The notes under the pieces: model-generated
Told to the model about the DNA's origin: nothing
Databases searched by the model: none
What the model saw: the letters and a program-made list of their open reading frames with translations, nothing else
Made by a program: the position numbers and the translations under genes
Shown here: piece after piece, positions 39,165 through 63,147 of the stretch
Layout: the number at the start of each line of letters is the position of its first letter
Numbering within the stretch: the first letter of the stretch is position 1
DNA from: a virus
Length of the DNA: 64,000 nucleotides
Direction: 5' to 3' (one strand)
IMG/VR virus record: IMGVR_UViG_3300045918_000320
Location: 17,293-81,292 of that record

Positions 39165-40012
39165 AACTGTCACACTCTGCTAAAGATCTTTGGAAAACCT
39201 GCAAATACAAATGGCATTTACATTACCAAAAAAGATATCGCTCTGTCAGAGTTAGCTCTGCATTAGCTTTTGGAAATAGCTTTGACTTAGCTTTAAACGA
39301 ATTATTGCTAACTAAAGATTTGCTAAAAGCTGCAGATGTTTTCTGGAATAGCTGGGAAGAATGGAAATATAAACCACTAATTGATTTTTATAAATCTGAT
39401 TTTAATTCAGATTTATTATCCAAATCAGATCTAGACGAAATTCAAGCAGTAGAGGCAGATGCCGATCTACAGGATCATTTATTAAATTGGTACTCACTCC
39501 GAGCTAAAGGTCTTAGGATGCTAGCAGAATATGATCTTCAGATCATGCCTAGCCTAGCTGAGATCATTTCTATTCAAGGAGAGTTTGAAATACCTATCCC
39601 AAATACAGAACACACTGTAGGAGGTAAATTAGATTTAATAGCACGTATTGGAGAACACACTTATATTCTAGATAACAAAACTACTAGTCAGCCTTATGCC
39701 AAAAATAGTTGTCAAACTAAAGAGCAGACAGCTTTATATGCAAGAGGAGTGCCAGAATACGATTCTAATGTAGGATTTTTAACTATAAACAAAAAAGATT
39801 TTAGAACACAAATTTTGTTAGGGCAAGCTCCTAAAGAATTACAAGAATCTGTAATGCAAGATTTTGTATCTATGGCTACAGAAATTGATAATACTACAGA
39901 ATTTGACAAGAATAAAAAAGGATGTTATTCTTTTGGTAGCAAGTGTCAGTTTTATTCGCATTGCTGGGGAGAAGGATTCAGTGAAAACATTTATGAAGCT
40001 GAAAAAGAATAA
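39146..40012 (+). CDS. Cas4/RecB-like PD-(D/E)XK nuclease (288 aa)
   Basis: N-terminal LSHSAKDLWKTCKYKWHLHY (with a cysteine), central FGNSFDLALNELL, catalytic GGKLDLIARI...YILDNKTT (D...D-x-K), a QTxLYAxG motif, and C-terminal CYSFGSKCQFYSHCW. The four cysteines fit an iron-sulfur cluster as in Cas4 and AddB-type nucleases. Likely processes DNA ends for recombination with the ERF protein nearby. Start uncertain: ATG 39146, ATG 39152 or TTG 39161. Confidence 0.88.
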   Translation: MGMGILKLSHSAKDLWKTCKYKWHLHYQKRYRSVRVSSALAFGNSFDLALNELLLTKDLLKAADVFWNSWEEWKYKPLIDFYKSDFNSDLLSKSDLDEIQAVEADADLQDHLLNWYSLRAKGLRMLAEYDLQIMPSLAEIISIQGEFEIPIPNTEHTVGGKLDLIARIGEHTYILDNKTTSQPYAKNSCQTKEQTALYARGVPEYDSNVGFLTINKKDFRTQILLGQAPKELQESVMQDFVSMATEIDNTTEFDKNKKGCYSFGSKCQFYSHCWGEGFSENIYEAEKE

Positions 40013-40203
40013 TGAAAAGAAATAATTTACATAATTATTATACCGCCCACAGATTATCACATGATATACTATATCTATTAAAAGGATATGCACCTTGGAT
40101 TACAGGCACTTATGTAAAGTATTACGGAAAGGAAACTCACTATCTTATAGATATGGTAACAATAGATAATGCAAAATTATTAAGGATTATTTTTGAAATA
40201 TAA
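40012..40203 (+). CDS. SPLL-tail family small protein (63 aa)
   Basis: ATG overlaps the nuclease stop. Ends MVTIDNAKLLRIIFEI. The codons for LRIIFE read TTAAGGATTATTTTTGAA and contain AGGA plus the TTG start of the next gene. Confidence 0.72.
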   Translation: MKRNNLHNYYTAHRLSHDILYLLKGYAPWITGTYVKYYGKETHYLIDMVTIDNAKLLRIIFEI

Positions 40204-40372
40204 AAACACAGAATTATATTTTATCTACAGATCAAAACTCCGATACTGTTTTACAGGTTTAAATTACTTATATGATACTTACGAAATATTAAATCTAACA
40301 AATAATGAAAAAATTTTTTTAAATAGAAAAATATTAATATCTCCTATGCTGAGAGAAATTTATGAGTTATAA
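40193..40372 (+). CDS. SPLL-tail family small protein, TTG start (59 aa)
   Basis: TTG at 40193, placed by the AGGA 7 bp upstream. Reads MKYKNTELYFIYRSKLRYC and ends KILISPMLREIYEL. The next ATG lies inside the codons of IYE. Confidence 0.68.
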   Translation: MKYKNTELYFIYRSKLRYCFTGLNYLYDTYEILNLTNNEKIFLNRKILISPMLREIYEL

Positions 40373-40556
40373 ATTAAAAACTAGTGATTTAGTTTGTATA
40401 TTTTGGGATAAAGATTTTGATATAGGATTTTACGTGCATCTAAATAATAAACATTTATATACTAAAAATAGTTCATTTGTTAGCAATTTACCAAAATATA
40501 AAATAGAATTAATAAGTAGTCCTTTACTTAGAGTAATTTACACTGGAGATTTTTAA
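40362..40556 (+). CDS. SPLL-tail family small protein (64 aa)
   Basis: Starts MSYKLKTSDLVCIFWDKDFD and ends IELISSPLLRVIYTGDF. GAGAG from the previous tail acts as ribosome site; its own GGAGATTTT precedes the next gene. Confidence 0.75.
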   Translation: MSYKLKTSDLVCIFWDKDFDIGFYVHLNNKHLYTKNSSFVSNLPKYKIELISSPLLRVIYTGDF

Positions 40557-40557
40557 A

Positions 40558-40767
40558 ATGGAAAAAGCAATAAAGACTTACAAAATCATAAATGTATTAA
40601 GTATAATATGTTTAGCTATTTGGGCAGCAGCATTTTTATTTTCAAATAAACCTATAGAAACTATTGACAAGATAATAATAGCTATGTTAGTATTTAAGAG
40701 TATTAATTATAATCTAAAAGAAAATGAATTTTTAGATGAGTTTAAACCGGAGGAAAAAAATGAGTAA
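40558..40767 (+). CDS. Small membrane protein (69 aa)
   Basis: Hydrophobic segment at about 10-30 (INVLSIICLAIWAAAFLFS), then IDKIIIAMLVF. Charged C-terminus. Overlaps the ERF gene by 8 bp. Unknown. Confidence 0.68.
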   Translation: MEKAIKTYKIINVLSIICLAIWAAAFLFSNKPIETIDKIIIAMLVFKSINYNLKENEFLDEFKPEEKNE

Positions 40768-41401
40768 TTTAATTTTTAAGAAAATGTCAGAAGTAATGAA
40801 AGATGTTGGATCTATTGGTAAAGACCAAAAGAATACAGCTCAAGGATTTAAATTCAGAGGTATAGACCAATTTGTAAATGCTTTGTATCCTGCTTTAACT
40901 AAACATGGAGTATTTATGGCTCCTAGATGTGTTAGAGAAGATCACGAAGTAAAAGATGTTACTAGATCTAACGGAAAGGCTGGAGTAGATAAACATGTTA
41001 CTATTATGATGGAATATGATTTCTTTGCTGAAGATGGATCTAAAGTAACTGTAGGGCCAATTCCTGCTGAAGGATTAGATTCTGGGGACAAAGCTACAAA
41101 TAAAGCTTTATCAGCAGCTTTAAAATATGCTTTAATTCAGACTTTCAGTATCCCAACAGAAGATATGGCTGAAGCAGATTTAGAATCTCCAACTATCGGA
41201 CAACAGTTAGTTGGGAATACCGGATTAACTACTATAACTTTAACTGATTCTTCATTTTCAAAAGGAGGAGCTGTATCAGGAAATACTGATGCTCCTCCTA
41301 AAATGACAGCAGCAGCCGCTACAGCAAAAGCAGTTGAGAAAAAAGTTAGTAGTATGCGAAAAGTAGAAGTTAAAAGTAACGATTCAGATTTAGACTTGTA
41401 G
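40760..41401 (+). CDS. erf: ERF-family single-strand annealing protein (213 aa)
   Basis: Start at 40760 follows GGAGGAAAA. The signature FKFRGIDQFVNALYPALTKHGVF and later EGLDSGDKATNKALSAALKY are typical of ERF recombinases, which anneal complementary strands in phage recombination. Length is normal for the family, and the C-terminal tail is low-complexity Ala/Lys. It pairs naturally with the nuclease at 39146. Confidence 0.92.
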   Translation: MSNLIFKKMSEVMKDVGSIGKDQKNTAQGFKFRGIDQFVNALYPALTKHGVFMAPRCVREDHEVKDVTRSNGKAGVDKHVTIMMEYDFFAEDGSKVTVGPIPAEGLDSGDKATNKALSAALKYALIQTFSIPTEDMAEADLESPTIGQQLVGNTGLTTITLTDSSFSKGGAVSGNTDAPPKMTAAAATAKAVEKKVSSMRKVEVKSNDSDLDL

Positions 41402-41425
41402 GAGTTAAAATAAAAAGGAGTTATT

Positions 41426-41629
41426 ATGCGAGTAGCAATGCTAGGTATAGAAAATGATAAAATAAAAATCGGAGCATTAGAAGAAGTGGAAACTCTGAAA
41501 AAAGCAAGAGAATATATTCAAAATGAATTGAATAATATTCCATCTTTAAAAGACTGTAAGGTAGTAGTATTTGAAGTAGAAGATGATTTTGATATGTCAA
41601 CTCTTATGTTTGATGATGGGGATGAATAA
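41426..41629 (+). CDS. Hypothetical protein (67 aa)
   Basis: Starts MRVAMLGIENDKIKIGALEE and is acidic at the end. AAAAGGAG site. One-base overlap with the next gene. Unknown. Confidence 0.68.
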   Translation: MRVAMLGIENDKIKIGALEEVETLKKAREYIQNELNNIPSLKDCKVVVFEVEDDFDMSTLMFDDGDE

Positions 41630-41895: not shown

Positions 41896-41904
41896 GAGAT
41901 TAAA

Positions 41905-42177
41905 ATGTCAGAAGTAGGATTATTAAAAGAAGCTAAAAACAAAGACAAGAACGGAAAAACTGTTTTAACAATTGAAGTTACAAATGATATTACTTTAAAA
42001 AAAGGTGATGTTATTTTTCTAAACGATCCAAAAGATTATTTAAACTTTATTGTTAAATCTGAAAAATCTTCAGATAAGCAAAGAGCTTGGGCAGAAGGGC
42101 AGTTAGAAGGATTTGAAACTGGTAAGTTAGGATTTATTAAAAAGAGATTACAACTTGCAAAACGCAAAGAAAACTAG
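41905..42177 (+). CDS. Hypothetical protein (90 aa)
   Basis: Beta-rich start (KTVLTIEVTNDITLKKGDVIFL) and a basic helical end (KKRLQLAKRKEN). Located after ERF; might bind DNA, but this is only from charge and place. TAGGAG site. Confidence 0.65.
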   Translation: MSEVGLLKEAKNKDKNGKTVLTIEVTNDITLKKGDVIFLNDPKDYLNFIVKSEKSSDKQRAWAEGQLEGFETGKLGFIKKRLQLAKRKEN

Positions 42178-42361
42178 GAAAAAGGGATACTTTTATGTAT
42201 CCTTAGAATATTATAATAGATCATTAAAACGTAAAGTTGAAAATCCAAATAGCTATGACATATATTTTAATGATTATGATAATACTTCTAAATCGTCTAC
42301 ACATTTAGATATTAGAATTTTTTATAAAGGGTTACTAAAAGAAATATTCAAAGGAGTTTAA
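42155..42361 (+). CDS. SPLL-tail family small protein, TTG start (68 aa)
   Basis: Probable TTG start with AGAGA upstream, overlapping the previous gene by 23 bp. Very basic N-terminus. Ends FYKGLLKEIFKGV, a variant of the family tail whose AAAGGAG leads the next gene. Confidence 0.6.
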   Translation: MQNAKKTRKKGYFYVSLEYYNRSLKRKVENPNSYDIYFNDYDNTSKSSTHLDIRIFYKGLLKEIFKGV

Positions 42362-42362
42362 A

Positions 42363-43511
42363 ATGCAAGTTAAAGATTTAAAGAGAGCTATTCCATATTT
42401 ATTTAAAACTAAAATCACACCACTACTAATTGGACTACACGGAAAAGGTAAAACATCTTTTGTATCTGAGTTAGCTCAGGAAATGGATGCTAATTTACTA
42501 GTGGTGCGTTTAGGTACATTGTCAGATTCAGGAGATCTAATTGGTTTACCGGCTCACCTACAAGATTCTTTAGGTAAAGCTATAGAAACTATTTATGTAG
42601 CACCTAGCTTCTTACCAGTAGCTAGAGAAGGATTTGACAATACCAGAAAGACTGTATTATTTCTAGATGAGATTAACAGATGCCACAAAGATTTAATTCA
42701 AGCTATTTTCCAGTTAGTAGAAAAAGGTGAACAGCTAGGGCCTCATAAATTAATTAATACTCACGTAATTGCTGCAGCTAACCCAGCTACAGACGACTAT
42801 TCAGTAATGGATATTTCAGATAAAGCTTTTACAGACAGATTTTGCCACTTAGCTTTCGAGCCTAGCACTCAAGAATTTTTAGATTATGGTAAAGCTAATT
42901 TTAACTCTCCATATTTAAATTTCTTATCTAATAGACCAGAAATGATTAGAAAAAAGAATGATCTAATTATAATTGATTATATTGATCAGTCTGAAAGATC
43001 TGCTGAAAAAATTTGTAGATTGGAATTAGCAGGACTACCTACAGATTTATTTCTAGAAGTAGCTTCGGGGATAGTAGGTACTGAAGCAGCCTCGGCAGCA
43101 GTAGCTTTTTACTTAGAAAATAATGTTAAAATCTCAGGAAATGATATTATTTATAATTACGAATCTGTAAAAGAAAAAGTATTAAAGCACAATATGCCAG
43201 CATTAGCACTTGCTATAGACGAAATTGAAAAGATACTTATTGATAAAAAAGAAGAGCCGAACACTCAGCAAGAAATTGATAATTTTATTCAATTCCTAAC
43301 TGACATTCCTGCAGATCTTTGTATTGGTACTATTATTAATTTTGCTAAAATTGAATCTTGGTCTAATGATGAACTTGTAATTCAAAACTTTTACGGGTAC
43401 GATTCTGGAAAAGGTATTTCAGATACATGTTCTAAATTCCTAGATTATATTCGAGAAATGCGTAAAGCAGGTAAATTAAAATTGCCAGAAGAAAAGAAAG
43501 AAGAAAATTAA
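42363..43511 (+). CDS. MoxR-type AAA+ ATPase (382 aa)
   Basis: Walker A LHGKGKTS (about 25-32), Walker B VLFLDEINR (98-106), sensor 1 VIAAANPATDDY, and arginine-finger region DRFCHL. MoxR ATPases act as chaperones together with VWA-domain proteins, and the next gene encodes exactly such a partner. The C-terminal third is helical. AAAGGAG site. Confidence 0.9.
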   Translation: MQVKDLKRAIPYLFKTKITPLLIGLHGKGKTSFVSELAQEMDANLLVVRLGTLSDSGDLIGLPAHLQDSLGKAIETIYVAPSFLPVAREGFDNTRKTVLFLDEINRCHKDLIQAIFQLVEKGEQLGPHKLINTHVIAAANPATDDYSVMDISDKAFTDRFCHLAFEPSTQEFLDYGKANFNSPYLNFLSNRPEMIRKKNDLIIIDYIDQSERSAEKICRLELAGLPTDLFLEVASGIVGTEAASAAVAFYLENNVKISGNDIIYNYESVKEKVLKHNMPALALAIDEIEKILIDKKEEPNTQQEIDNFIQFLTDIPADLCIGTIINFAKIESWSNDELVIQNFYGYDSGKGISDTCSKFLDYIREMRKAGKLKLPEEKKEEN

Positions 43512-43533
43512 TATTTACAACAGGAAAAATTAA

Positions 43534-44706
43534 ATGTCAGTACAACAAGCTATAATAGAATTAATTGTTTCTGGTAATCAATTTTATGCAAGTTTTTTAG
43601 CACAATGTAATAGAAAAATACGTTACGATTTACCAGCTCCGGCTGGTATTTCAGTAACCTCTTCTATTAATTTGTATATTAATCCAACATTATTTGATAA
43701 GTTTACTTTAAAGCAACAACAAGATATTTTAAAGCACGAAATAATGCATTTAATAAACGAACATTGTGGAGTTAAACCTTCAGATGAAAATTTATCAGCA
43801 AAGCAATTAAATATAGCTATGGACTGTGCTATAAACCAATTAGAAGGTATTGAGCAGTCAGTAGATGAGATTGGCGGAGTAACTTTAGAACGCTTTAAAA
43901 AAGCTTGCAGTGAGTTTATAGAACCCGATAGTATCAAGCCTAAAATGGACTTTAGATATTATGGTAGAATTATAAAACAATGTCAGGATAAATTTGACGA
44001 AGAGCAAGCTGGAAAAGAAATAGACGATCACTCCAAAATGGAGAATGATACTGAAGGCGATTCGAGAGAAACTACTTATGGAAAAGAATTCCAAAAGCAA
44101 GTTGTAAAAAATGCTGTAGGTAGAGCTAAAAATGCTGCTGGAAATGTTGGTGGAGATTTACAAAGATTAATTGATCAAATGTTTGCTAGTAAGGTAAACT
44201 GGAAACAGCAATTAACACGGATTGTTTCTAATGCTGTTACAATTAAAAAGACTACTACTAGAACACGTTTAAACAGACGTTACGGATTGATGTCACCCGG
44301 AAAAAAGAAAGATTATGTTCTTAAAGTCGGATATGTTTTAGATACTTCTGGTAGTATGTCTTCTTATAACCTAGCCCAAGGCTGGGGAGAAATTTCTAAA
44401 TTACAATCTCTATTCCCAGAAATGGAAATTATTTTATACGAATGTGATGCAGACGTTCAGCCGGGAAGAAAATTTGATAGGAAATTGAAGCCAGAAGTTA
44501 AAGGTGGAGGAGGAACAGATATGAATCCTGCATTCCAATTAGCTTTAAAAGATGGTGCTGATTTAATTATATGTTTTACAGATGGTGATTTTTACGAAAA
44601 TATAGATAATCCAAATGTACCAGTTATTTTTTGTATCGACGGTAAAAATAGTTATAGCTACCCTTTTGGTAAAGTGTTATGTTTAGGTGAGCATAGAGAT
44701 GGTTGA
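43534..44706 (+). CDS. VWA-domain protein with N-terminal HExxH metallopeptidase-like domain (390 aa)
   Basis: Residues 67-72 (KHEIMH) give an HExxH zinc site followed by NIAMDCAINQ, as in the DUF2201 putative metallopeptidases. The C-terminal half is a VWA domain: MIDAS DTSGSM at 270-275, GGGGTDMNPAF, and CFTDGDF. It pairs with the MoxR ATPase 22 bp upstream. Such pairs are thought to remodel or activate protein complexes with a metal cofactor. The middle linker is charged and low complexity. Confidence 0.88.
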   Translation: MSVQQAIIELIVSGNQFYASFLAQCNRKIRYDLPAPAGISVTSSINLYINPTLFDKFTLKQQQDILKHEIMHLINEHCGVKPSDENLSAKQLNIAMDCAINQLEGIEQSVDEIGGVTLERFKKACSEFIEPDSIKPKMDFRYYGRIIKQCQDKFDEEQAGKEIDDHSKMENDTEGDSRETTYGKEFQKQVVKNAVGRAKNAAGNVGGDLQRLIDQMFASKVNWKQQLTRIVSNAVTIKKTTTRTRLNRRYGLMSPGKKKDYVLKVGYVLDTSGSMSSYNLAQGWGEISKLQSLFPEMEIILYECDADVQPGRKFDRKLKPEVKGGGGTDMNPAFQLALKDGADLIICFTDGDFYENIDNPNVPVIFCIDGKNSYSYPFGKVLCLGEHRDG

Positions 44707-44806
44707 TAAATTTATGGACAGTTATGTTGATGAATTTGTCAGGCAATACAGACGTATGAAATATAAAAATAAACCATTAATATATATTATTTACGGATTA
44801 GAATGA
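44699..44806 (+). CDS. SPLL-tail family micro-protein (35 aa)
   Basis: Starts MVDKFMDSYVDEFVRQYRR and ends KPLIYIIYGLE. Overlaps the VWA gene by 8 bp and the next gene by 4 bp (ATGA). One of the smallest members, almost reduced to the tail. Confidence 0.6.
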   Translation: MVDKFMDSYVDEFVRQYRRMKYKNKPLIYIIYGLE

Positions 44807-45087
44807 TTTTAAATACAGACTATTTAGAAAATATTTTTAGAGGTATAGTTCCGGGGCCAGTGATTGTAACTAAAAGTTCTGAGAGAGATGGTTATAGAAT
44901 TTGCATAGTTCATCCGTTCCCTGTATTGCCTTCATATTTTTATATTAATACCATAGAATTACATAGACCAAAATCCGATTTAGTTTATGAATTAGGAATT
45001 AGAGTTAAGTTTAATTCTATATTTAAAAAAGACGTAGAAGCCTTTAAAGCACCATTATTAAAAATTATTTATGGATATAGAGAATGA
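44803..45087 (+). CDS. SPLL-tail family small protein (94 aa)
   Basis: Starts at the ATGA overlap. Ends EAFKAPLLKIIYGYRE. The middle (RDGYRICIVHPFPVLPSYF) is unique. It overlaps the next gene by 4 bp. Confidence 0.75.
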   Translation: MILNTDYLENIFRGIVPGPVIVTKSSERDGYRICIVHPFPVLPSYFYINTIELHRPKSDLVYELGIRVKFNSIFKKDVEAFKAPLLKIIYGYRE

Positions 45088-45428
45088 TGCAAACTTCCAT
45101 GGACGACTATAACTATGTATCAAAACATTTTGAAGTTGTCCGAAAAAAATATGGCACAGAAATTAACTTCACAATTAGCCCTATAGTAAACGAAAATTCT
45201 CAGCCTTGTATAATTAGTTTTTATACTTTAGTTACTGATTATTTCGGGTATATGGATTTTATATCTTTAGAGGGTATAGAATTGTGGGAAATGCTTGACA
45301 AAGTAAAGGTAATGAATTATGCTCTTACTGTGATGATTCGCAAAGCATTATTTAATTATGGAATAAAGGGATTAAAAGGAGAGAGATTATCCAAAACTCC
45401 TTTATTGAGATTAATTTATGAAGTATAA
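45084..45428 (+). CDS. SPLL-tail family protein, longest member (114 aa)
   Basis: Ends LSKTPLLRLIYEV, with the next ATG inside the IYE codons. The middle contains WEMLDKVKVMNYALTVMIRK. Function unknown. Confidence 0.75.
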   Translation: MMQTSMDDYNYVSKHFEVVRKKYGTEINFTISPIVNENSQPCIISFYTLVTDYFGYMDFISLEGIELWEMLDKVKVMNYALTVMIRKALFNYGIKGLKGERLSKTPLLRLIYEV

Positions 45429-45663
45429 ATTTCCCGGAGAGTATATTGAGTTACTACACGAAGAAACTGGATTAATAGAATGTCTAAATTGGTATGTAAA
45501 AAATGACGATCATCAGTTTTTACTTCTTGACAATATAAGAGATGTTAATTTACTGGCAGTATGGACAGATTTACTAGATTCTAGAATTTTAGCAGGAAAA
45601 TTGTTACCAATAATATTAGGAGAGGAATATGTATCAGAGATTTACAGAAACGCAAAAAGATAA
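45418..45663 (+). CDS. SPLL-tail family protein with extended end (81 aa)
   Basis: Contains the tail-like KLLPIILGEE near residue 64, after which it continues 14 residues (YVSEIYRNAKR). The GGAGAGG codons of LGEE form the ribosome site for the primase-helicase start at 45629. Confidence 0.7.
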   Translation: MKYKFPGEYIELLHEETGLIECLNWYVKNDDHQFLLLDNIRDVNLLAVWTDLLDSRILAGKLLPIILGEEYVSEIYRNAKR

Positions 45664-47581
45664 AGGTTTATTAGTTCCAGTAGGGACTGATGTATACAAA
45701 TTAATGCGTAACGCTAACAAAGATTATTACACTTCATTTTATAGATATAACGATGAGCACAAAAAAGAATTCGATGCTAAAGGTTCTGTAGCTGGATTTA
45801 AAGGTGTTGTATCTGATTTGCTACCTTGGGATTTCGACAATGAATCAGATCCATCTATTGCTCAAGCAGATGCTTTAGAAATGGTTTACCGGCTAAAGAA
45901 AGACGGATACAAAGAAGAGAATATTAGAATATTTTTTTCAGGTATGAAAGGATTTGAGGTATCAGTACCTATTTCAGAATTGCTTACTCCGGCTGAATTA
46001 AAAAATGTATGTTTAAATTATGCGGAAGGATTAAAAGCTGATACTAGTGTTTATAACGATACTAGAATATTCAGATTACCATTTACTAAACACAATAAAT
46101 CTGGACTATATAAAATTCCTTTAACACTGGAACAATTAGAATCTCTCAGTATTTCAGAAATTAGAGATGAAGCTAAAAGTATAGAAGGATTTGATAAGCA
46201 TGAGATATTAGCAGCTTATAAACCAGCTAAACTTACAGAAAAAATGAGACAATTTAAAGCTAAAACTCCAGAAGTAAAAGTTACTAGAGAATTATTAGAA
46301 TCTATTAGTTTAGAAAATATCGATTGGGGAAAGAAGCCTAGAGATTTAACTCACGAAAAATATTTACTATCTTTAGGTTATTTCTCGCAAGGAAATCGTA
46401 GCGAGGCTTTAATTATTTTAGCAGCTACTTTAAAAAATTTAGGATGGAATGAAACTCAGGTATACTATGCTTGTAAAGCTGCAGCCGATTTACAGGCTAG
46501 CCGAACAGGCGAAGATAAATTTCCTAAAAATGAAATATACAAAAATATTATTGAGCAAGTCTTTGGGCCGAATTGGAAAAATGGTAGCTATTCTGTAAAA
46601 GATAATTCTTTATTGCAGCAATTATCTCTATTAGTTCCGGCTGAAGTGAGAATGACTTCTTCTGAGGATAATATTGTATCTATTACTGAATCTTTTGGAT
46701 CTTTCAGTAGCTATGCAAAAGAAATTGATAAAAATACTATTAAGTTTGGAATAGCCCCTTTAGACGAAAAATTAGTGATGCAGACAGGAAGACTTTACGG
46801 TATTCTAGCAGCTCCGGGAGTCGGTAAGACTACTTTTGGAGTAGACGTTTTAAGAAATACTTCTTTAAATGGTGAGCTTAGTATGTTTGCCAGCTATGAC
46901 ATGTCTTGTCCAGACGTTATTCAAAAATTAATTCAAAAACATAGCCGATTAAAAGCTAAAGATATTTACGCAGCTTTTAGGGATAATGATACAAAACAAA
47001 TAGAAAAATTCTATAAAATGTTAGATGAGAATTACAAAAATGTTACCTTTATTTTTAAAACTGGACAAACTATAGATGATTTAAAGAAATCTATTATTGA
47101 AAGGGAAAAACAATTAGGAGCACCTATTCGGTTAGTAGTAGTAGATTATTTAGAGTTAATTCAATCTAAATTTTCAGATCCTACTCAGGCTAGTATGGAG
47201 TCGATACAAGGACTTAGAGAAATAGCTGTAGGGATGAATAAAGCAGTTATTGTAATGCTTCAGCCGAGTAAAATGGGTACTAGTATAGACGAGCCTATTA
47301 CGTCTTATTCTGCCAGTAAAGGTAGTTCTAGTATTGCCCAAGCAGTTACAGCTATGCTTACTTTACACAGACCGGGATGCAGCTCTAGGACTCCAGAGAA
47401 TGATAATTATATTGGTATAGATTGTGTAAAAAATAGAAGTGGTGGATTATTTAGTTTAGATTTACATTTTGACGGAGCTACAGGAAATATTAGAGCTTTG
47501 GAAACTATTGAAGCTATGACATTGCAGGAATTGCGAGAAGCTAAAAGACAGCAGCATCAGGACGAGGATAGTTTATTTTGA
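45629..47581 (+). CDS. AEP primase - DnaB-type helicase fusion (650 aa)
   Basis: The N-terminal half carries archaeo-eukaryotic primase motifs: LPWDFDNESD (D-x-D), FFSGMKGFEVSVP (SGxKGxH-like), and DTRIFRLPFTKHNKSGLYK. The C-terminal half is a RecA/DnaB helicase: Walker A LAAPGVGKTT, Walker B RLVVVDYLELI, then VMLQPSKMG and SASKGSSSIAQAV. The middle (250-330) is helical. It would unwind DNA and prime lagging-strand synthesis. No zinc-binding domain or DnaG-type TOPRIM is seen. Confidence 0.9.
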   Translation: MYQRFTETQKDKGLLVPVGTDVYKLMRNANKDYYTSFYRYNDEHKKEFDAKGSVAGFKGVVSDLLPWDFDNESDPSIAQADALEMVYRLKKDGYKEENIRIFFSGMKGFEVSVPISELLTPAELKNVCLNYAEGLKADTSVYNDTRIFRLPFTKHNKSGLYKIPLTLEQLESLSISEIRDEAKSIEGFDKHEILAAYKPAKLTEKMRQFKAKTPEVKVTRELLESISLENIDWGKKPRDLTHEKYLLSLGYFSQGNRSEALIILAATLKNLGWNETQVYYACKAAADLQASRTGEDKFPKNEIYKNIIEQVFGPNWKNGSYSVKDNSLLQQLSLLVPAEVRMTSSEDNIVSITESFGSFSSYAKEIDKNTIKFGIAPLDEKLVMQTGRLYGILAAPGVGKTTFGVDVLRNTSLNGELSMFASYDMSCPDVIQKLIQKHSRLKAKDIYAAFRDNDTKQIEKFYKMLDENYKNVTFIFKTGQTIDDLKKSIIEREKQLGAPIRLVVVDYLELIQSKFSDPTQASMESIQGLREIAVGMNKAVIVMLQPSKMGTSIDEPITSYSASKGSSSIAQAVTAMLTLHRPGCSSRTPENDNYIGIDCVKNRSGGLFSLDLHFDGATGNIRALETIEAMTLQELREAKRQQHQDEDSLF

Positions 47582-47787
47582 AGACAAATGATAATAGATA
47601 TGTCTATTTTTTCACTTATAGTAATGAATCTATAGTGTCTATGTTTTTTGAATGTCAAGAGGAAGATATTAATAGTAATACTTGCTTTAAAAGAAAAGAA
47701 ATTGAAGAGCAAAGAGAGGATTACGATATCTATTTACATTATAAAGCAATACAAAGCCCTTTATTAAAAGCTATTTTGGAAGAATAA
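47578..47787 (+). CDS. SPLL-tail family small protein, TTG start (69 aa)
   Basis: TTGA overlap with the helicase stop. Ends YKAIQSPLLKAILEE. The first part (RYVYFFTYSNESIVSMFFE) is a short strand-rich segment. Confidence 0.7.
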   Translation: MKTNDNRYVYFFTYSNESIVSMFFECQEEDINSNTCFKRKEIEEQREDYDIYLHYKAIQSPLLKAILEE

Positions 47788-48008
47788 TGAAATATAAAAA
47801 AGATAAAGTTTGTAGATATAAATTTGTATATTCTAAAGATATTATACAATCTTTGCGAGACTCTATAGACATTACTGGATTTGAAAGTAGTTTAGACTTG
47901 CATTTATATAGAACTGAAGAAATTTACAAAGAAAATAATTACGAAAGTTTTATTAATCATAATGCTCTAATTGCACCTTTATTTAGAATTATTTTAGGAG
48001 AAAAATGA
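47787..48008 (+). CDS. SPLL-tail family small protein (73 aa)
   Basis: Ends NHNALIAPLFRIILGEK; the TTAGGAGAAAAATG of its last codons carries the ribosome site and ATG of thyX. Confidence 0.75.
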   Translation: MKYKKDKVCRYKFVYSKDIIQSLRDSIDITGFESSLDLHLYRTEEIYKENNYESFINHNALIAPLFRIILGEK

Positions 48009-48631: not shown

Positions 48632-48949
48632 ATGAAACTTTGTAAATCTTGTAATTTAATTACTTCAGATTTTGGCAAAAATAAAGCTAGAAAAGATGGA
48701 CTTAGTTTTTACTGTAGACCTTGTAACCGAAAATTAGAACAAATTAGTATCTCTAAATTATCTAATAAAAAAAATAAACAAGTAGTAGTTAGCTTTGAAA
48801 AAAACTGTCAGAATTGTAATTGGAATTTTGGCGGTAAATGCGTAGTAAAAAATCCCGGACAAATTACAGAAATAGAAAATGATAATATCTGTCATAAATT
48901 TGAAAGATTTGTGGAGAGAGAAATTGACATTGCCGAGTTACATTCATGA
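48632..48949 (+). CDS. Zinc-finger protein (105 aa)
   Basis: N-terminal KLCKSCNLITSDFGKNKARK, then CRPC resembles the zinc motif of HNH-type proteins (CxxC...DF.xNK..KDG....C..C), but no nuclease core follows. A second set CQNCNWN...GGKCVVKN with CHKF lies in the C-terminal half. Probably nucleic-acid binding. Confidence 0.7.
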   Translation: MKLCKSCNLITSDFGKNKARKDGLSFYCRPCNRKLEQISISKLSNKKNKQVVVSFEKNCQNCNWNFGGKCVVKNPGQITEIENDNICHKFERFVEREIDIAELHS

Positions 48950-49167
48950 AAATTAAAAACTCAATACTATTGCAATTGTGGGATCTTTCTTTTTTATTAA
49001 GATGTTCAACGTATTCCGTACCTTATGCTTTGGATTATCATATGTATGTTTATGATTTTGTAGGAGATACTTATGCCTGTAGTCCTATAACTTATTTAGA
49101 AATAAAACAACTACAAAACTGTACCCTTTTAGGAATTATATATGGAAAAGAATTATCAAATAATTAA
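48946..49167 (+). CDS. SPLL-tail family small protein (73 aa)
   Basis: ATGA-coupled. Tail-like NCTLLGIIYGKE near the end, extended by LSNN. The codons AGGAATTATATATGG hold the site and ATG of the DNA polymerase. Confidence 0.72.
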   Translation: MKIKNSILLQLWDLSFLLRCSTYSVPYALDYHMYVYDFVGDTYACSPITYLEIKQLQNCTLLGIIYGKELSNN

Positions 49168-55037: not shown

Positions 55038-55040
55038 TAT

Positions 55041-55069: not shown

Positions 55070-55090
55070 AGACTTATCGGGGGATATTTT

Positions 55091-55723: not shown

Positions 55724-55753
55724 TATTTAGTTTTAACTTTGGTAAGATAAATT

Positions 55754-56089
55754 ATGAGTAAGATAAAGCACATTATTTTAACTATAAAAGGGATACAATG
55801 GAAGATTTTTATACAATCTCCATCTTCGTACCGAAGAATGCATGGAAATGATAGTGATGCAATTATGTATCCATCAGATAGAGAATTATACTTTAAAAAA
55901 GATCATTTAAAGTTTGGTACTGTTTGTCACGAATTGTTACACTGTTATATTGCTTCAGCCGGTACAGCTAGTGCTGATATGCAAGCTTCTCAAATGGAAG
56001 AACATATTTGTGAGTTATTGGAAGATCATATTTTTGACTTATTAAATGATGCTAAGAGAGTTATAGATTTTATAGCAAAGGAAAAATAA
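55754..56089 (+). CDS. HExxH protein, SprT/ImmA-like metallopeptidase candidate (111 aa)
   Basis: VCHELLHCYI gives HExxH at residues 59-63; MEEHICELLED about 20 residues later supplies a possible Glu ligand. The N-terminal beta segments (KHIILTIKGIQWKIFI) fit a small M78/ImmA-like fold. Cytoplasmic. It might cleave a regulator. Function inferred from the motif only. Confidence 0.65.
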   Translation: MSKIKHIILTIKGIQWKIFIQSPSSYRRMHGNDSDAIMYPSDRELYFKKDHLKFGTVCHELLHCYIASAGTASADMQASQMEEHICELLEDHIFDLLNDAKRVIDFIAKEK

Positions 56090-56733
56090 TGTTAATTGGA
56101 ATATCGGGAATTAAAAGAAGTGGAAAAGATACAATAGCTAATGTTTTAATAAAAGACTTTGGCTTTAAGAAAATAGCTTTTGCCGATAAATTAAAAGATA
56201 TCTGTGCTAGAGTATTCGATTTACCTGTATCTGTGTTTCATAGAGATGATTTTAAAGATATGGTGTTTGAAGCACCAGTAATTATAGATGTTGAGCACAT
56301 TAAGAATCTGGTTACTTTGCTAGAGGAGTATACTAGTATCCCAAATGATGCCTACAATGCGTTAATGTCTACAGGATGTAGCAAAACGCTTTATTCACCG
56401 AGAGAAATCTTACAATTCGTAGGGACGGATTTATGCCGAAACTGCGTCAATGATTCGATTTGGCTCGACATCTTTAATTCTATAGTAAAAAATACTGAAG
56501 GTCATGTTGTTGTTTCAGATGCTAGATTTACTAATGAAAGAAATTTAATTAAAAGTTTAGGCGGAACAAATATTCTTGTATCACGTTCTAATTTAAATAA
56601 TAAAGATTCTCACGCTTCTGAAAATGATTTAGGGGATGAGTCTAGTTACGATGTTCATGTAAAAAATGACACTACTAAGGAAAAACTAGAGCATGATATT
56701 CAAATGTGGTATACACTTAGAACAGCTAGATGA
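56089..56733 (+). CDS. Deoxynucleoside monophosphate kinase (214 aa)
   Basis: P-loop GISGIKRSGKDT at residues 4-15, FADKLKD and SPREILQFVGTDLCR motifs, then VVSDARFTNE. This matches the phage T4 gp1-type dNMP kinase family, which phosphorylates dNMPs (dTMP, dGMP and 5-hydroxymethyl-dCMP in T4). It completes the route from NrdJ, dUTPase and ThyX to dNTPs. Confidence 0.92.
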   Translation: MLIGISGIKRSGKDTIANVLIKDFGFKKIAFADKLKDICARVFDLPVSVFHRDDFKDMVFEAPVIIDVEHIKNLVTLLEEYTSIPNDAYNALMSTGCSKTLYSPREILQFVGTDLCRNCVNDSIWLDIFNSIVKNTEGHVVVSDARFTNERNLIKSLGGTNILVSRSNLNNKDSHASENDLGDESSYDVHVKNDTTKEKLEHDIQMWYTLRTAR

Positions 56734-56942
56734 AATTAAAACCTGCAGATCACGTTGCTAGTAATATTTTAGGATTTCCTCAAATTAAATTTTATAGAGA
56801 GCAGTTAAAAAAGTATCCTCTAAAAGGTTCTAAAGTAATTTATTTGCAATATAGGAATTTAATAAGACCTAGCGTATACGATAATAATATTAATTTAAAA
56901 ATGCTGGAAAGCGAATTAATTAAAATATTGGTGGGATTTTGA
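56730..56942 (+). CDS. SPLL-tail family small protein (70 aa)
   Basis: ATGA-coupled. Ends LESELIKILVGF; the codons GGTGGGATTTTGA contain the ribosome site and TTG of the next gene. Starts MKLKPADHVASNILG. Confidence 0.68.
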   Translation: MKLKPADHVASNILGFPQIKFYREQLKKYPLKGSKVIYLQYRNLIRPSVYDNNINLKMLESELIKILVGF

Positions 56943-57200: not shown

Positions 57201-57495
57201 TAAAAAATCTAAAAGTGAAGTCGAATACTGGAGAGGAAAATACAAGGAATTATTAAGTGAAAATAAAAGGTTAAAGAAAGATTTAAAAAGATTAAAAAAT
57301 GTAGATTACGAATTTGAAGAGTTTAAAGACGCATTTGAAGATTTTTCAGAAGAAAAAGTAACAAAACGAAAAGAAAACTTGTGTCAAAACTGTATGCGTG
57401 GTAAACTAGTTTCCGTAGATATTCCGGGAAACAGAGTAGTTAGATTATGTAAAATATGCGGTAATAGGGAAACAAAAAGTGAAGATGGGATTTAA
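57190..57495 (+). CDS. Coiled-coil zinc-ribbon protein, TTG start (101 aa)
   Basis: N-terminal basic coiled coil (YWRGKYKELLSENKRLKKDL), C-terminal zinc ribbon CQNC...CKIC. Likely binds nucleic acid. The last codons NRETKSE are duplicated 103 bp downstream. Confidence 0.7.
   Translation: MKGNKKSKSEVEYWRGKYKELLSENKRLKKDLKRLKNVDYEFEEFKDAFEDFSEEKVTKRKENLCQNCMRGKLVSVDIPGNRVVRLCKICGNRETKSEDGI
57462..57485 (+). repeat. 24-bp direct repeat, copy 1
   Basis: Begins TAATAGGGAAACAAAAAG and ends TGAAGA. It encodes NRETKSE at the end of 57190-57495 and contains GTGAAG, the start of the next ORF. Confidence 0.85.
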
Positions 57496-57595
57496 ACGAA
57501 AAGAACAAAATCATTTCGGCTGTTGGTTACGAATATATAAATCTCCGCTAATGTGTATAATTTATAATAGGGAAACAAAAAGTGAAGAGATCTAA
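57479..57595 (+). CDS. SPLL-tail family micro-protein (38 aa, or 36 from the ATG)
   Basis: GTG at 57479 or ATG at 57485. Reads MGFKRKEQNHFGCWLRIYKS and PLMCIIYNRETKSEEI. A tail-only member whose last codons come from the duplicated 24-bp repeat. AGGGA upstream. Confidence 0.5.
   Translation: MKMGFKRKEQNHFGCWLRIYKSPLMCIIYNRETKSEEI
57565..57588 (+). repeat. 24-bp direct repeat, copy 2
   Basis: Identical to copy 1, starting 103 bp later. It again encodes NRETKSE and again holds a GTGAAG start, that of the gene at 57582. Confidence 0.85.
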
Positions 57596-57818
57596 TTACG
57601 ATTATGTATTTGGAGTTGGCGGAGAACATTGGGATATGAGCCACTGTATTGAAGAATTATTCTATAATAAGTATAATAACAATTATTTTTATATAGCAAC
57701 TGAGCGTAATAGTCTAGACGAATTAAATTATATAAAAGAAGCTACTTGGAATTCTCCATTAATAAATATAATTTACGATTTAAAAGATAAGAGAGCTTTA
57801 CGTGATACACAAAAATAG
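57582..57818 (+). CDS. SPLL-tail family small protein, GTG start (78 aa)
   Basis: Reads MKRSNYDYVFGVGGEHWDMS. Tail EATWNSPLINIIYDLKDK, then RALRDTQK, whose GAGAG and GTG start the next gene. Confidence 0.7.
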   Translation: MKRSNYDYVFGVGGEHWDMSHCIEELFYNKYNNNYFYIATERNSLDELNYIKEATWNSPLINIIYDLKDKRALRDTQK

Positions 57819-58347: not shown

Positions 58348-58600
58348 AATTGATAGAGGACTTTACCAGTGCGAATTATGTGTAAAAGGTAAACTTACTC
58401 GCTATTCAGATATGCAAATTGACCATACTGAACCGGCAGTACCATTAACTGGCTGGGAAAGCTTTGACAGCTTTATAGAGCGTTTATTTGTACCTGTAGA
58501 GGGACTACGTGCCATTTGTAAGCCACACCATGAAGAAATAACTAAAGGTCAGACTGAAATACGAAAAACTAATAGAAAATTAAAAAAGATAAAAAAATGA
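58256..58600 (+). CDS. HNH-type nuclease (114 aa)
   Basis: YQCELCVKGK, MQIDHTEPAVP, and LRAICKPHHEEITKGQTE form an HNH zinc-nuclease pattern with Cys pairs. GGAG lies upstream. Its overlap with the Hint-like gene recalls intein plus homing endonuclease pairs, though here they are separate frames. Confidence 0.82.
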   Translation: MDSKKKATVISLLRRAWMRSKERSECLKRAKIDRGLYQCELCVKGKLTRYSDMQIDHTEPAVPLTGWESFDSFIERLFVPVEGLRAICKPHHEEITKGQTEIRKTNRKLKKIKK

Positions 58601-58779
58601 AAAGAACTAGTCATACTTCTTATTATTTTTTCGACCATCCTTCTGATATTATTCCGGTAATTCGCAAACTAGATTCTTATAAGAATGTGACTAGACGCTT
58701 AGGTGGATGGGCATATTACATAAAAGATATTGCTATTAACGCTCCTTTACTTCAGGAGATTTTTAAAGTTGAAAGCTAA
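58597..58779 (+). CDS. SPLL-tail family small protein (60 aa)
   Basis: ATGA-coupled. Starts MKRTSHTSYYFFDHPSDI and ends DIAINAPLLQEIFKVES. CAGGAG in the tail codons leads the next gene. Confidence 0.75.
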   Translation: MKRTSHTSYYFFDHPSDIIPVIRKLDSYKNVTRRLGGWAYYIKDIAINAPLLQEIFKVES

Positions 58780-58963
58780 AGATACAAAAAAATATTGTCA
58801 AGTGTGTGAATTTGACGATTTACAATATTGGACAAATTACGATGAATTGGAAGGCTCCACTTACCAGCACCATTTAGCACAATCTGATTTCGAAACTGTT
58901 ATTTTAGATATAGATATTTTTAAAAGCATAATGCTAAAACTAATTTTTAGAGGTATAAAATGA
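58769..58963 (+). CDS. SPLL-tail family small protein, TTG start (64 aa)
   Basis: TTG at 58769 chosen because GGAG is 9 bp upstream; reads MKAKDTKKYCQVCEFDD. Tail DIFKSIMLKLIFRGIK. Overlaps the next gene by 4 bp. Confidence 0.68.
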   Translation: MKAKDTKKYCQVCEFDDLQYWTNYDELEGSTYQHHLAQSDFETVILDIDIFKSIMLKLIFRGIK

Positions 58964-59725: not shown

Positions 59726-59731
59726 TATACT
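59703..59731 (+). promoter_or_regulatory. Host-type sigma-70 promoter before the ClpP-like gene
   Basis: TTGACG, 17-bp spacer, TATACT. It lies inside the end of the metzincin gene. Confidence 0.7.
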
Positions 59732-59768
59732 ATTGTTTTAGGCGGATAAACCGCTAATAGGAGATTTA

Positions 59769-60542: not shown

Positions 60543-60546
60543 GAGA

Positions 60547-60569
60547 AGGAGCTTCGGCTCCTTTTTTTT
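60547..60569 (+). terminator. Rho-independent terminator after the ClpP-like gene
   Basis: AAGGAGC-TTCG-GCTCCTT followed by eight T. The next ATG begins right at the end of the T tract. Confidence 0.88.
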
Positions 60570-60779
60570 ATGTATAAACATTACAAATTAATAGAAGGTG
60601 ATTATATAAACTGGATTATGCCAGATGAATATCAGTATTCTTTAAGAGCGGATGTATTAAGTGAAGCTTGGGATACTAGATACGAAATATATTATAATGA
60701 TTCGGATGGAGATCCTCTAATTAAAAATAATATGATGAAAGGTAAACTTTTAAGGATAATTTATGGAAACGAAAACTAA
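60570..60779 (+). CDS. SPLL-tail family small protein (69 aa)
   Basis: Starts MYKHYKLIEGDYINWIMPDE, with a YKLxxGD start shared with other members, and ends MMKGKLLRIIYGNEN. The only nearby ribosome site is locked in the terminator stem. The TTTTAAGGATAATTTATGG end holds site and ATG of the next gene. Confidence 0.72.
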   Translation: MYKHYKLIEGDYINWIMPDEYQYSLRADVLSEAWDTRYEIYYNDSDGDPLIKNNMMKGKLLRIIYGNEN

Positions 60780-61209
60780 AATAATTATAGTAATTGTAGC
60801 AATAGCTTTAGGATTTGGAGCTGGATATTTTGCTAAACCCTCGTCCGTTAGGACGATCACCGTGGAAAAAATAATAAAAGAACAGTCTAAAGCTGAAGTA
60901 CAAACAAGAATTATTTATAAAGAAAAAACTGTAAAGCCTGATGGAACAGTTACAGAAATTGAAAAAACAGATAATAGTAATTCTAGTACAGATATTACAA
61001 AAATTAATAATGAAAAAAGTACTAGCCAAACTATAAAAAATGATATAGGATTAAATATATCAGCTTTAGCAATAGCTAATAGCAGTAATATTACAGGAAC
61101 TAGGGAGTATGGAATACATATTTCTAAAAGAGTGATTAGTAATATTACAGTAGGTGCTTTTGCTGATACAGAAAAGAAAATAGGAGTTAGCATTGGAATC
61201 AATTTCTGA
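60763..61209 (+). CDS. Membrane-anchored protein, possible i-spanin (148 aa)
   Basis: N-terminal transmembrane helix (KIIIVIVAIALGFGAGYFA), then a basic, helical and coiled-coil-like part with EKIIKEQSKAEVQTRIIYKE, then a beta-rich end. Such anchors with periplasmic coiled coils occur in i-spanins, but no partner is certain. Confidence 0.65.
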   Translation: METKTKIIIVIVAIALGFGAGYFAKPSSVRTITVEKIIKEQSKAEVQTRIIYKEKTVKPDGTVTEIEKTDNSNSSTDITKINNEKSTSQTIKNDIGLNISALAIANSSNITGTREYGIHISKRVISNITVGAFADTEKKIGVSIGINF

Positions 61210-61378
61210 GTTATTTAAACATAAATATAGAATATTGCTTTATTTAGATCATAATCCAGAACCTATTCTCGGAGTTAAGTATTTATGTATTAGGGGAATA
61301 GACGGAGATTTAGTTTTTGAAAAACGTAAATTTTACTTATTAAAAATGCCATTATTAAATTTAGTGTTTGGAGTTTAA
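61193..61378 (+). CDS. SPLL-tail family small protein, TTG start (61 aa)
   Basis: Starts MESISELFKHKYRILLYLD with GGAG 6 bp upstream. Ends FYLLKMPLLNLVFGV. Confidence 0.68.
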   Translation: MESISELFKHKYRILLYLDHNPEPILGVKYLCIRGIDGDLVFEKRKFYLLKMPLLNLVFGV

Positions 61379-61627
61379 ATGTCTCACGTATACACTGTAC
61401 CTGCTGCATTTAATTGGAGTACATATTCTACTGCTTTAATGTTTGTTAGACATACAAATCCTTGTGCTGCACAGAATTTATCCTTTCTATTTACAAGAAA
61501 ATCAGAACTAAAGAGTAAACTTAAGTTAACTTCTCATAGAATAATTTATACTCAATTGGGAGAAGAATTTACTTTAGATTTGTGTTTATTAAATTACAAA
61601 TTACTAGATATTATTTTTGAAGGTTAA
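61379..61627 (+). CDS. SPLL-tail family small protein (82 aa)
   Basis: Starts MSHVYTVPAAFNWSTYS and ends CLLNYKLLDIIFEG. Directly follows the previous stop. Confidence 0.7.
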   Translation: MSHVYTVPAAFNWSTYSTALMFVRHTNPCAAQNLSFLFTRKSELKSKLKLTSHRIIYTQLGEEFTLDLCLLNYKLLDIIFEG

Positions 61628-61861
61628 ATGTTTATACATTATTATAAATCTATAAATTTACCTACTAGAAGATTTTTTGGAATAGAAACTTCAGAAGATA
61701 TTAAAAATTTAATATTATGGAGTACTAAGGAAGAGTACATTAAATCTGCCGGATTTAAAGTTGATGTAAGTAATAAATTTGATAGTGATTTTAGAAATCG
61801 AATAAAAGTTCAAGTTATATTTGGAGAACTTCTACACTTAATATATTTGGGGGAAAAATGA
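61628..61861 (+). CDS. SPLL-tail family small protein (77 aa)
   Basis: Starts MFIHYYKSINLPTRRFFG and ends VIFGELLHLIYLGEK. GGGGGAAAAATG at the end starts the next gene. Confidence 0.72.
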   Translation: MFIHYYKSINLPTRRFFGIETSEDIKNLILWSTKEEYIKSAGFKVDVSNKFDSDFRNRIKVQVIFGELLHLIYLGEK

Positions 61862-62043
61862 AAATTGGAGATATTTTTTTAGATAAAAAATCTAATGATT
61901 TATTAATATTTTCTGGTGCTATGTGCGTAAATGAATTTAGAAAAGCTGCCTACTATTTAAAATTTGAAACTAAATATGGAGCTTTTCTTTACCTATCTTT
62001 AGATTCCGCAAAAGAAACTTTAGAGGTAATTGGTGCATTATAA
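61858..62043 (+). CDS. Small protein in the SPLL cluster, tail divergent (61 aa)
   Basis: Starts MKIGDIFLDKKSNDLLIF and ends SAKETLEVIGAL, which lacks a clear family tail. The N-terminus resembles the KLxxGD start of other members. AGAGG at the end starts the next gene. Confidence 0.62.
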   Translation: MKIGDIFLDKKSNDLLIFSGAMCVNEFRKAAYYLKFETKYGAFLYLSLDSAKETLEVIGAL

Positions 62044-62230
62044 ATTAGAAAATGCTGAAGGTATTTTTGTATATATGCCTAGTGAATTTTCTCAATTAAA
62101 AAGTGATGTTTTAGATGAGCGTTATGATAGAGATGTTACGTATTATCACAACAAAATATATGGCTCTACTTATATAATAAAATCAGAAGCTATACAATCT
62201 ACCCTTTTAAGGATAATTTATGAATTTTAA
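62033..62230 (+). CDS. SPLL-tail family small protein, GTG start (65 aa)
   Basis: GTG at 62033 (AGAGG 7 bp upstream); a TTG 3 bp earlier is less likely. Reads MHYKLENAEGIFVYMPSE and ends AIQSTLLRIIYEF. The codons TTTTAAGGATAATTTATG are identical to those at 60570-60779. Confidence 0.72.
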   Translation: MHYKLENAEGIFVYMPSEFSQLKSDVLDERYDRDVTYYHNKIYGSTYIIKSEAIQSTLLRIIYEF

Positions 62231-62384
62231 AACTAAGAATAAAATGGCATTTTTTTCTATTAGAGATTTAAAAAGATATATTATTGCTCCATACGGTAGA
62301 TTATTTACTATACGTCCCTATACTGGTTATGCCATAACTTCTGAAATACTTCAAGGACAATTACTAAAAATAATTTATGCCTAA
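62220..62384 (+). CDS. SPLL-tail family small protein (54 aa)
   Basis: Starts MNFKTKNKMAFFSIRDLKRY and ends EILQGQLLKIIYA. The next ATG lies inside the codons of IYA. Confidence 0.68.
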   Translation: MNFKTKNKMAFFSIRDLKRYIIAPYGRLFTIRPYTGYAITSEILQGQLLKIIYA

Positions 62385-62580
62385 ATATCATTATAAAATT
62401 AACATGGGAAATCTTGAAGAAATAATGTACAAAATTGTATCTATAAATTCCTCTCCAAATTGTATTAAAAAAGCTATAGGATTGTCAGCAGAAAATATTG
62501 GAGTAATTTCAGACTTTAATGCTAGTTTAATTTTAAAAGCTGTATTCCGTAGTAAATTAATTAAGGCTATATATGGCTAA
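62377..62580 (+). CDS. SPLL-tail family small protein (67 aa)
   Basis: Starts MPKYHYKINMGNLEEIMYK and ends FRSKLIKAIYG. Codons AAGGCTATATATGG contain site and ATG of the next gene. Confidence 0.7.
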   Translation: MPKYHYKINMGNLEEIMYKIVSINSSPNCIKKAIGLSAENIGVISDFNASLILKAVFRSKLIKAIYG

Positions 62581-62752
62581 ATTAAAATATGGAGATAAAG
62601 TGTGGGTATTTAGATACAATATGACTATTAGGTATGCCTTATTGTATCCTTATAACTACAGTATCTACGGAAAATATATGTTAGTTTCACCTTGGAATAT
62701 GGTTAAGTTTGAAGCTATTTGTTCACCTCTAATGAAGGCTATTTATGACTAG
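62573..62752 (+). CDS. SPLL-tail family small protein (59 aa)
   Basis: Starts MAKLKYGDKVWVFRYNMT and ends EAICSPLMKAIYD. Begins in the tail of the previous gene and ends in the start of the next. Confidence 0.72.
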   Translation: MAKLKYGDKVWVFRYNMTIRYALLYPYNYSIYGKYMLVSPWNMVKFEAICSPLMKAIYD

Positions 62753-62936
62753 ACCTAAAATAAATTACAATACTATATGTAGAGTGCTACTTTATAGTAT
62801 GCCTCTTAGAAATGGTTTTCACTATTCTCCAAGACCTTATTCTGAAAAATGGAGTCCTACTTTAATGGGAAAAAGAGTTAGAGTACTTAAAAATAAAATA
62901 TTTGCTTCTCCTTTAATTATGGAAATTTATGACTAG
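62745..62936 (+). CDS. SPLL-tail family small protein (63 aa)
   Basis: Starts MTRPKINYNTICRVLLYS and ends NKIFASPLIMEIYD. The next ATG lies in the IYD codons. Confidence 0.75.
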   Translation: MTRPKINYNTICRVLLYSMPLRNGFHYSPRPYSEKWSPTLMGKRVRVLKNKIFASPLIMEIYD

Positions 62937-63147
62937 ATACAAATTAAAATTAGGGGATAAAGTGCATAGATTATTTTGCATAGAAAATTTTAAATATGTA
63001 GATGATAATTTTTTATCTGATACTGAATTTAAAGGAGAGGATGCAGAACCAGATAGCCTTTTAATTTTTAAACATGAATTTTATAGAGCATCTTTACTGA
63101 GAGAAATATTTGGATATAAAGAAATTATACGAATTGGCAAGATCTGA
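62929..63147 (+). CDS. SPLL-tail family protein with extended end (72 aa)
   Basis: Starts MTRYKLKLGDKVHRLFCIE; the tail EFYRASLLREIFGYKEII is followed by RIGKI. The GAGAG...TTG start of the next gene is inside the tail. Confidence 0.72.
   Translation: MTRYKLKLGDKVHRLFCIENFKYVDDNFLSDTEFKGEDAEPDSLLIFKHEFYRASLLREIFGYKEIIRIGKI

Follow-up and report, generated by a model that had tools for sequence, protein, structure and literature searches.

Why do many small phage genes of unlike sequence end in the same few residues, and is it the peptide itself or the start signal of the following gene that is kept in these codons? The question is raised by a stretch of 64,000 nucleotides (hereafter the window), which comprises bases 17293-81292 of an 81,292-base phage record in IMG/VR (IMGVR_UViG_3300045918_000320). 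In the window, 28 small plus-strand genes share the C-terminal tail (S/A)PLL(R/K)xI(Y/F), with the core L-L-x-x-I-(Y/F), and their bodies are otherwise unlike one another. A sequence-only reading of the window had proposed that this motif and the initiation signal of the next gene constrain each other. We found that the synonymous codons of the tail are indeed tuned to the Shine-Dalgarno (SD) site of the next gene, but the peptide core stays in place while the SD slides with the start. Thus, the initiation signal is not the reason for the conservation of the peptide, as had also been suggested, and the shared terminal peptide itself is the unexpected part.

Results

When the C-termini of the small window genes were clustered without a preset motif, 23 of 90 were grouped, against 3-4 with shuffled termini and 4 with mid-protein segments. 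The tail family is therefore not a chance finding. The core is followed by at most 17 further residues in the window, and the motif is degenerate in three genes (45418-45663, 58769-58963, and 61858-62043). Profile searches of tail members gave nothing usable: none of ten window members matched Pfam at E <= 1, and the best PHROG E values were 0.0056 (a partial match) in ten window members and 0.05 in ten relatives, with no whole-protein profile match. In addition, an IMG/VR search with one window tail gene returned no close relatives, and our literature search turned up general work on overlapping genes and translational coupling and none on such a tail family.

The tail genes are tightly packed against the genes that follow them. 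Start codons in the window are inferred ones. On this basis, 23 of the 28 tail genes overlap the next start, 2 abut it and 3 leave a gap of 1-3 nt, in agreement with the earlier count of more than 20 overlapping or abutting members, and none of the 28 is more than 3 nt away from the next start. Among the other plus-strand genes of the window, overlap was found in 33 of 72 and a distance within 3 nt in 42 of 72. Overlap is significantly more common in the tail genes (Fisher P = 0.0014), and their stops overlap or nearly abut the next start on one strand, as in coupled pairs of the overlap type.

In exactly 11 of the 28 members, the next start begins with the second base of core codon 6 (Y/F), with nine ATG in TAT-G and two TTG in TTT-G. 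The sequence-only reading had given at least 11 pairs with starts across these codons. Its statement that the Arg or Lys codon supplies the SD stands in the main: the SD-like bases come chiefly from core codon 3 (AGG, AGA, AAG, GGA, or ATG), but in one pair (62220-62384 followed by the start at 62377) AAAA stands there and an SD is lacking. The SD energy at the 11 starts inside the core, computed with the E. coli anti-SD, was 3.70 versus 2.01 kcal/mol in synonymous shuffles (P = 5e-4). In the other 17 members, the next start is at codons 5 or 8-15, later than codon 6 except for one earlier start, and all frames are used. Their SD energy at the actual start was 5.46 versus 4.23 kcal/mol in shuffles (P = 5e-4), and the internal site at codon 6 averaged 1.2.

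The same tail, in the form (S/T)(S/P)LxK(E/A)LL, was found in twelve related phages, which were retrieved via the DNA polymerase. Their tails are hydrophobic and stand at the extreme C-terminus (SSLEKELL, SPLLEELF, TPLMEALL, and variants), and the next start is in a different register from that of the window. Blind clustering of C-termini grouped 28 of 101 small genes in G018 and 19 of 43 in G012 (locus L032), with null values of 1-4 over these two and the window, and it also grouped 17 of 70 in G010 and 11 of 64 in G006. Furthermore, a profile built from the relatives' tails alone detected the tails of the window with the register unchanged (P = 5e-8 versus shuffles). More distant phages, with 40-45% polymerase identity, have essentially no tails. 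G004, the sister of the window phage by polymerase, is largely colinear with it and is without any tail genes. The nearest genomes found for the window phage have no more than 68% polymerase identity. When GTDB genomes were searched for the host, the only matches were polymerases, none with more than 29% identity.

In the relatives, the next start is mostly of the NTGA type (AAG GAG TTA TTA TGA), so that codons -4 and -3 contain the SD. The last base of codon -4 is G in 50 of 64 nonredundant tails with NTGA overlap versus 3 of 21 tails whose next start lies downstream (P = 2.7e-7). The SD energy was 6.15 versus 3.77 kcal/mol in shuffles for the overlapping class, and 2.04 versus 2.77 for the downstream class. 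Examples of the latter are 1680-1895 of L004, where SPLIEELF is written with GAAGAA and followed by a GGGAG of its own, and 8219-8416 of L032. In both the window and the relatives, the SD inside the upstream reading frame thus exceeds synonymous expectation, and the tail codons are tuned, by synonymous choice, to carry the SD of the next gene. Where the SD is located elsewhere, the tuned codons are lost and the tail is kept; it is the choice among synonymous codons, not the peptide, that depends on whether an SD is required.

The SD signal is not peculiar to the tail family, and embedded SDs are similar in strength in overlapping genes without the tail. For 69 nonredundant NTGA pairs outside the family in the same genomes, the SD energy was 5.67 versus 3.65 in the null, and for 53 tail pairs it was 6.45 versus 3.65 (Mann-Whitney P = 0.07 between the two sets). 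The motif is absent from the C-termini of the nontail pairs as a group; a few borderline tails remain among them. Meanwhile, RNA structure at the junctions and start regions did not differ from shuffles (z 0.15), and an Rfam search of 38000-64000 gave no matches.

The core is retained where the SD lies elsewhere, namely in 17 of the 28 window members and in 21 nonredundant relatives; the motif is neither lost nor relaxed there. The next start is in one of two registers over the same amino acids, at the second base of the Y codon in the window and at the third base of the last codon in the relatives. In addition, the most constant tail residues, Leu -6 and Ser/Thr -8, are upstream of the SD in the relatives. 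Leu -6 and Leu -2 are invariant within the motif sets gathered by regular expression, yet same-codon rates among pairs with the same residue are mostly near the expectation from codon usage (for Leu -2, 0.26 versus 0.19 in L032 and 0.31 versus 0.26 in the others), with higher rates at some positions, so recent DNA copying is hardly the explanation.

The bodies of 129 tail proteins fall into 69 clusters, which include SH3-like, membrane-plus-SH3, and short helical proteins, folds that were assigned by eye except for one modelled case. That case is A2, a protein of one relative, for which AlphaFold gave five strands and a C-terminal helix at SLEKEL (residues 69-74) with a pLDDT (predicted local distance difference test) of 77. 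Foldseek placed SH3-like barrel, KOW, Tudor, and uL2-type domains on top (E 0.05-0.2 in PDB; 0.005-0.06 in BFVD, uncharacterised proteins). The strand pattern of a five-stranded SH3-like fold thus agrees in this one relative, and no Foldseek E value was below 0.001. Furthermore, the tails of L032 show the same E to A change in three ortholog sets and SS to TP in two. Common changes of this kind would be expected from a partner that is shared and diverging.

The presence of tail genes between conserved genes varies. The relatives keep the order helicase, primase, an 83-residue gene, and polymerase (helicase and primase being named from position and sequence), and tail genes appear or disappear in between. 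For instance, helicase and primase are joined by a direct TAATG overlap in G001 and G003, and a tail gene stands there in the other relatives; in G007 and G009 the polymerase follows immediately after the 83-residue gene. L104 and L033 have one more tail gene than the related L031 and L030. With tight overlaps kept through this turnover, the genome comparison supports the earlier suggestion that the unit may be inserted ahead of other genes. Between primase and the 83-residue gene, G003 has a 17-codon open reading frame (ORF), MEKKLERICRILKKELL, and G002 has a 24-codon ORF, MEEKLKNQCRTSELKAESLEKELT (3935-4009 of L004). These are in-frame, body-less relics of the 75-residue tail gene of G001, with the primase overlap retained and the tail still running up to the following ATG. 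That the frame was kept twice is no more than suggestive. Further body-less tail ORFs were sought, and none was clear besides those of G002 and G003. Two very short tail genes of the window, 44687-44806 (39 residues) and 57479-57595 (38 residues), may be body-reduced forms of a similar kind.

Individual tail genes of the window

All tail genes described here are on the plus strand. Among the 11 with a start inside the core, gene 40012-40203 ends in AKLLRIIF (40171-40194), with AAGGA and the TTG start 40193 inside, and gene 40193-40372 ends in SPMLREIY (40340-40363), with GAGAG and the ATG start 40362. The tail TPLLRLIY (45396-45419) of gene 45084-45428 has a weak SD and the ATG start 45418. 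In gene 48946-49167, CTLLGIIY (49120-49143) carries TTAGGA and the ATG start 49142 of the DNA polymerase. GKLLRIIY (60741-60764) of gene 60570-60779 and STLLRIIY (62198-62221) of gene 62030-62230 both have TTAAGGA, with ATG starts at 60763 and 62220. These two genes share the identical 19-mer CTTTTAAGGATAATTTATG, at 60747 and 62204, as the sequence-only reading had noticed; it is weak evidence alone because 30 different 19-mers are repeated within the window. The remaining five form a run: GQLLKIIY (62355-62378; gene 62220-62384), the pair without an SD, with the ATG start 62377; SKLIKAIY (62551-62574; gene 62377-62580) with AAGG and ATG 62573; SPLMKAIY (62723-62746; gene 62573-62752) with GAAGG and ATG 62745; SPLIMEIY (62907-62930; gene 62745-62936) with TGGAA and ATG 62929; and ASLLREIF (63088-63111; gene 62929-63147) with GAGAG and the TTG start 63110.

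The other 17 place the next start in various ways. SPLIIVIFKG (38040-38249) has the next start 3 nt downstream, with the SD AAAGGAT within the extension. SPLLRVIYTGDF (40362-40556) has TAC for Tyr and the next SD, TGGAG, within the T-G-D extension; in KGLLKEIFKGV (42155-42361), the SD AAAGGAG is within the K-G-V extension. ATGA overlaps are found in KPLIYIIYGLE (44687-44806), APLLKIIYGYRE (44803-45087), and the degenerate SIMLKLIFRGIK (58769-58963). GELLHLIYLGEK (61628-61861) also has ATGA, with the SD GGGGG from the L-G-E-K extension. SPLLKAILEE (47578-47787) has a TAATG overlap and SELIKILVGF (56730-56942) a TTGA overlap. The degenerate GKLLPIILGEE... (45418-45663) has the SD GGAGAGG and the ATG 45629 of primase-helicase, a start past the core, and APLFRIILGEK (47787-48008) has AGGAG and the ATGA start of ThyX (48005). 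Primase-helicase, ThyX, and DNA polymerase are therefore all next genes of tail genes, as had been stated, but the I-Y-G site is found only at the polymerase. SPLMCIIYNRETKSEEI (57479-57595) is followed by GTG 57582, the start of the tail gene SPLINIIYDLKDK... (57582-57818). APLLQEIFKVES (58597-58779) has the SD CAGGAG and the next TTG at 58769. MPLLNLVFGV (61193-61378) and YKLLDIIFEG (61379-61627) abut the next start, and KETLEVIGAL (61858-62043) is degenerate.

Several neighbouring features were also observed. A terminator-like hairpin (GGAGC TTCG GCTCC and eight T; 60543-60572) runs straight into the ATG of the tail gene at 60570, whose nearest SD-like bases are within or just ahead of the 5′ arm of the hairpin. 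At 55754-56089, there is a small HELLH-motif protein, common to nearly all tail-bearing relatives and the tail-less G004, with no Pfam match. In most tail-bearing relatives, a small membrane-anchored protein that combines an SH3-like part with the tail GLLKELE is conserved (16827-17126 of L104 and orthologs); no match to it was found in the named phage collection. Meanwhile, the minus strand of G004 (contig of locus L006; about 6679-11057, 62651-62875, and 64361-64648) encodes at least 11 small proteins with the N-terminal motif M(K)LDYFDKDGE(F/I) and differing bodies; this family mirrors the C-terminal one. Finally, the window encodes a MoxR-like AAA ATPase beside a DUF2201 metallopeptidase-like/VWA protein (42363-44706; Pfam), a chaperone-like pair also present in G004 and G018. 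We rejected this pair as a tail-specific partner because the tail-less G004 has it too.

Discussion

We consider it quite likely that the tail has two layers, a C-terminal peptide under selection at the protein level and, over the same codons, ordinary coupling of the overlap type. Sequence statistics show that, with the genes packed in overlaps, the final 8-12 codons of each tail gene contain the next gene's SD and start codon as well, and that synonymous codons are chosen to suit. The peptide, approximately (S/T)(P/S)L-x-(K/R)-(E/A/I)-(L/I)-(L/F/Y), appears with good support to be kept through selection on the protein, because it survives with the SD elsewhere and serves two registers, and because its codons are for the most part random outside the SD. 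The tail is thus a clade-specific peptide on many unrelated bodies and probably a short docking helix. As an N-capped C-terminal helix, it may serve to dock numerous small phage proteins onto one common partner, of phage or host origin, because it is found on SH3-like, membrane-plus-SH3, and helical bodies and changed in concert within a genome. Ribosomes finishing a tail gene might reinitiate on the next start or open it, and the chain of translation would then stay intact when a tail gene is gained or lost between core genes. In its strongest form, the lineage would mark dozens of unrelated small proteins with a docking peptide for a single partner, and the same codons would be a portable translational relay between any two core genes; this we regard as possible but rather doubtful.

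Other explanations could be considered. The peptide might be a by-product of selection acting on the SD, spacer, and start codon that serve the next gene, with the amino acid sequence simply following. The excess of overlaps in tail genes, the SD-tuned codons, and the tail DNA retained in the body-less relics agree with this. However, the core is kept in 17 window and 21 relative members with the SD elsewhere, two start registers use the same amino acids, nontail NTGA pairs carry SDs without the motif, and the constant Leu -6 and Ser/Thr -8 are upstream of the SD in the relatives. We therefore rejected the by-product explanation, largely on the members with a separate SD, and give it very little probability. 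Recent spread of a DNA unit by duplication or gene conversion would explain the identical 19-mer in two window genes, the repeated arrays, and the codon sharing above expectation at some positions. Yet the codons behind identical amino acids differ, at most tail positions, as much as codon usage would predict, and the 129 proteins have bodies of 69 clusters; with this codon saturation, the copying explanation is mostly rejected and seems highly improbable.

At the protein level, the tail could be an intramolecular helix that caps a small SH3-like barrel and is kept for folding. The helix at residues 69-74 after the five strands of the A2 model and the many bodies that resemble SH3-type barrels with GD near the N-terminus are in line with such a role, but the same tail on helical mini-proteins and membrane-anchored proteins (components 1, 4, and 6) and the genome-wide concerted changes in L032 are not. 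We think a folding role unlikely, though it deserves real consideration. It also fits poorly with the up to 17 residues that follow the core in the window. The same extension speaks against the tail being a tag for degradation whose free C-terminus is recognised by a host protease. The hydrophobic motif at the extreme C-terminus of the relatives could be cited in favour of such a tag; we believe there is only a slim chance of this.

Several observations weigh against the explanation by a docking peptide under protein-level selection. The motif sets of the relatives were gathered by a regular expression that fixes positions -8, -6, -3, and -2. Codons are shared above expectation at some positions (Leu -6, Ala -3 in L032), and the concerted change in L032 could reflect common descent instead of one partner. 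Because the AlphaFold model of a window member is poor (pLDDT 61, unusable), the helix is predicted with fair confidence for the relatives only. A search for the partner gene by presence and absence returned only clade-wide genes, with no partner identified. In addition, since the sister G004 has no tails, two gains, losses, or transfer are required.

Translationally coupled overlapping gene pairs of the NTGA and TAATG types are known in prokaryotes (PMC6728339, PMC12548453), and an embedded SD is a known situation for overlapping genes (PMC6728339, PMC2784483). NTGA is also the commonest form in the relatives here. In contrast to these pairs, the signal here is spanned by a single peptide motif that recurs in dozens of genes within the same genome, and a TAT-G start, 8-38 nt ahead of the end of the stop codon, is used additionally by the window phage. 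Codons of the upstream gene close to its stop are reported to be under constraint from the SD of the next gene (Eyre-Walker 1996, as cited in PMC2784483; Palleja 2009, PMC2784483). Here the same constraint is seen within one peptide family, between members needing the SD and members not needing it. As for the SH3-like barrel, KOW, Tudor, and uL2-type domains, the likeness is that of the top Foldseek matches of A2, none of them significant, and a shared C-terminal tail is no known feature of these families.

The tail genes thus provide a natural data set in which some members depend on the RNA signal and others are free of it, so that selection for a peptide is told apart from selection for an overlapping ribosome site. 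Furthermore, the shared terminal peptide, which is in neither Pfam nor PHROG, suggests a common partner, and a synthetic tail could be used to fish this partner out. Finding it would reveal what a large number of functionally unassigned phage genes do.

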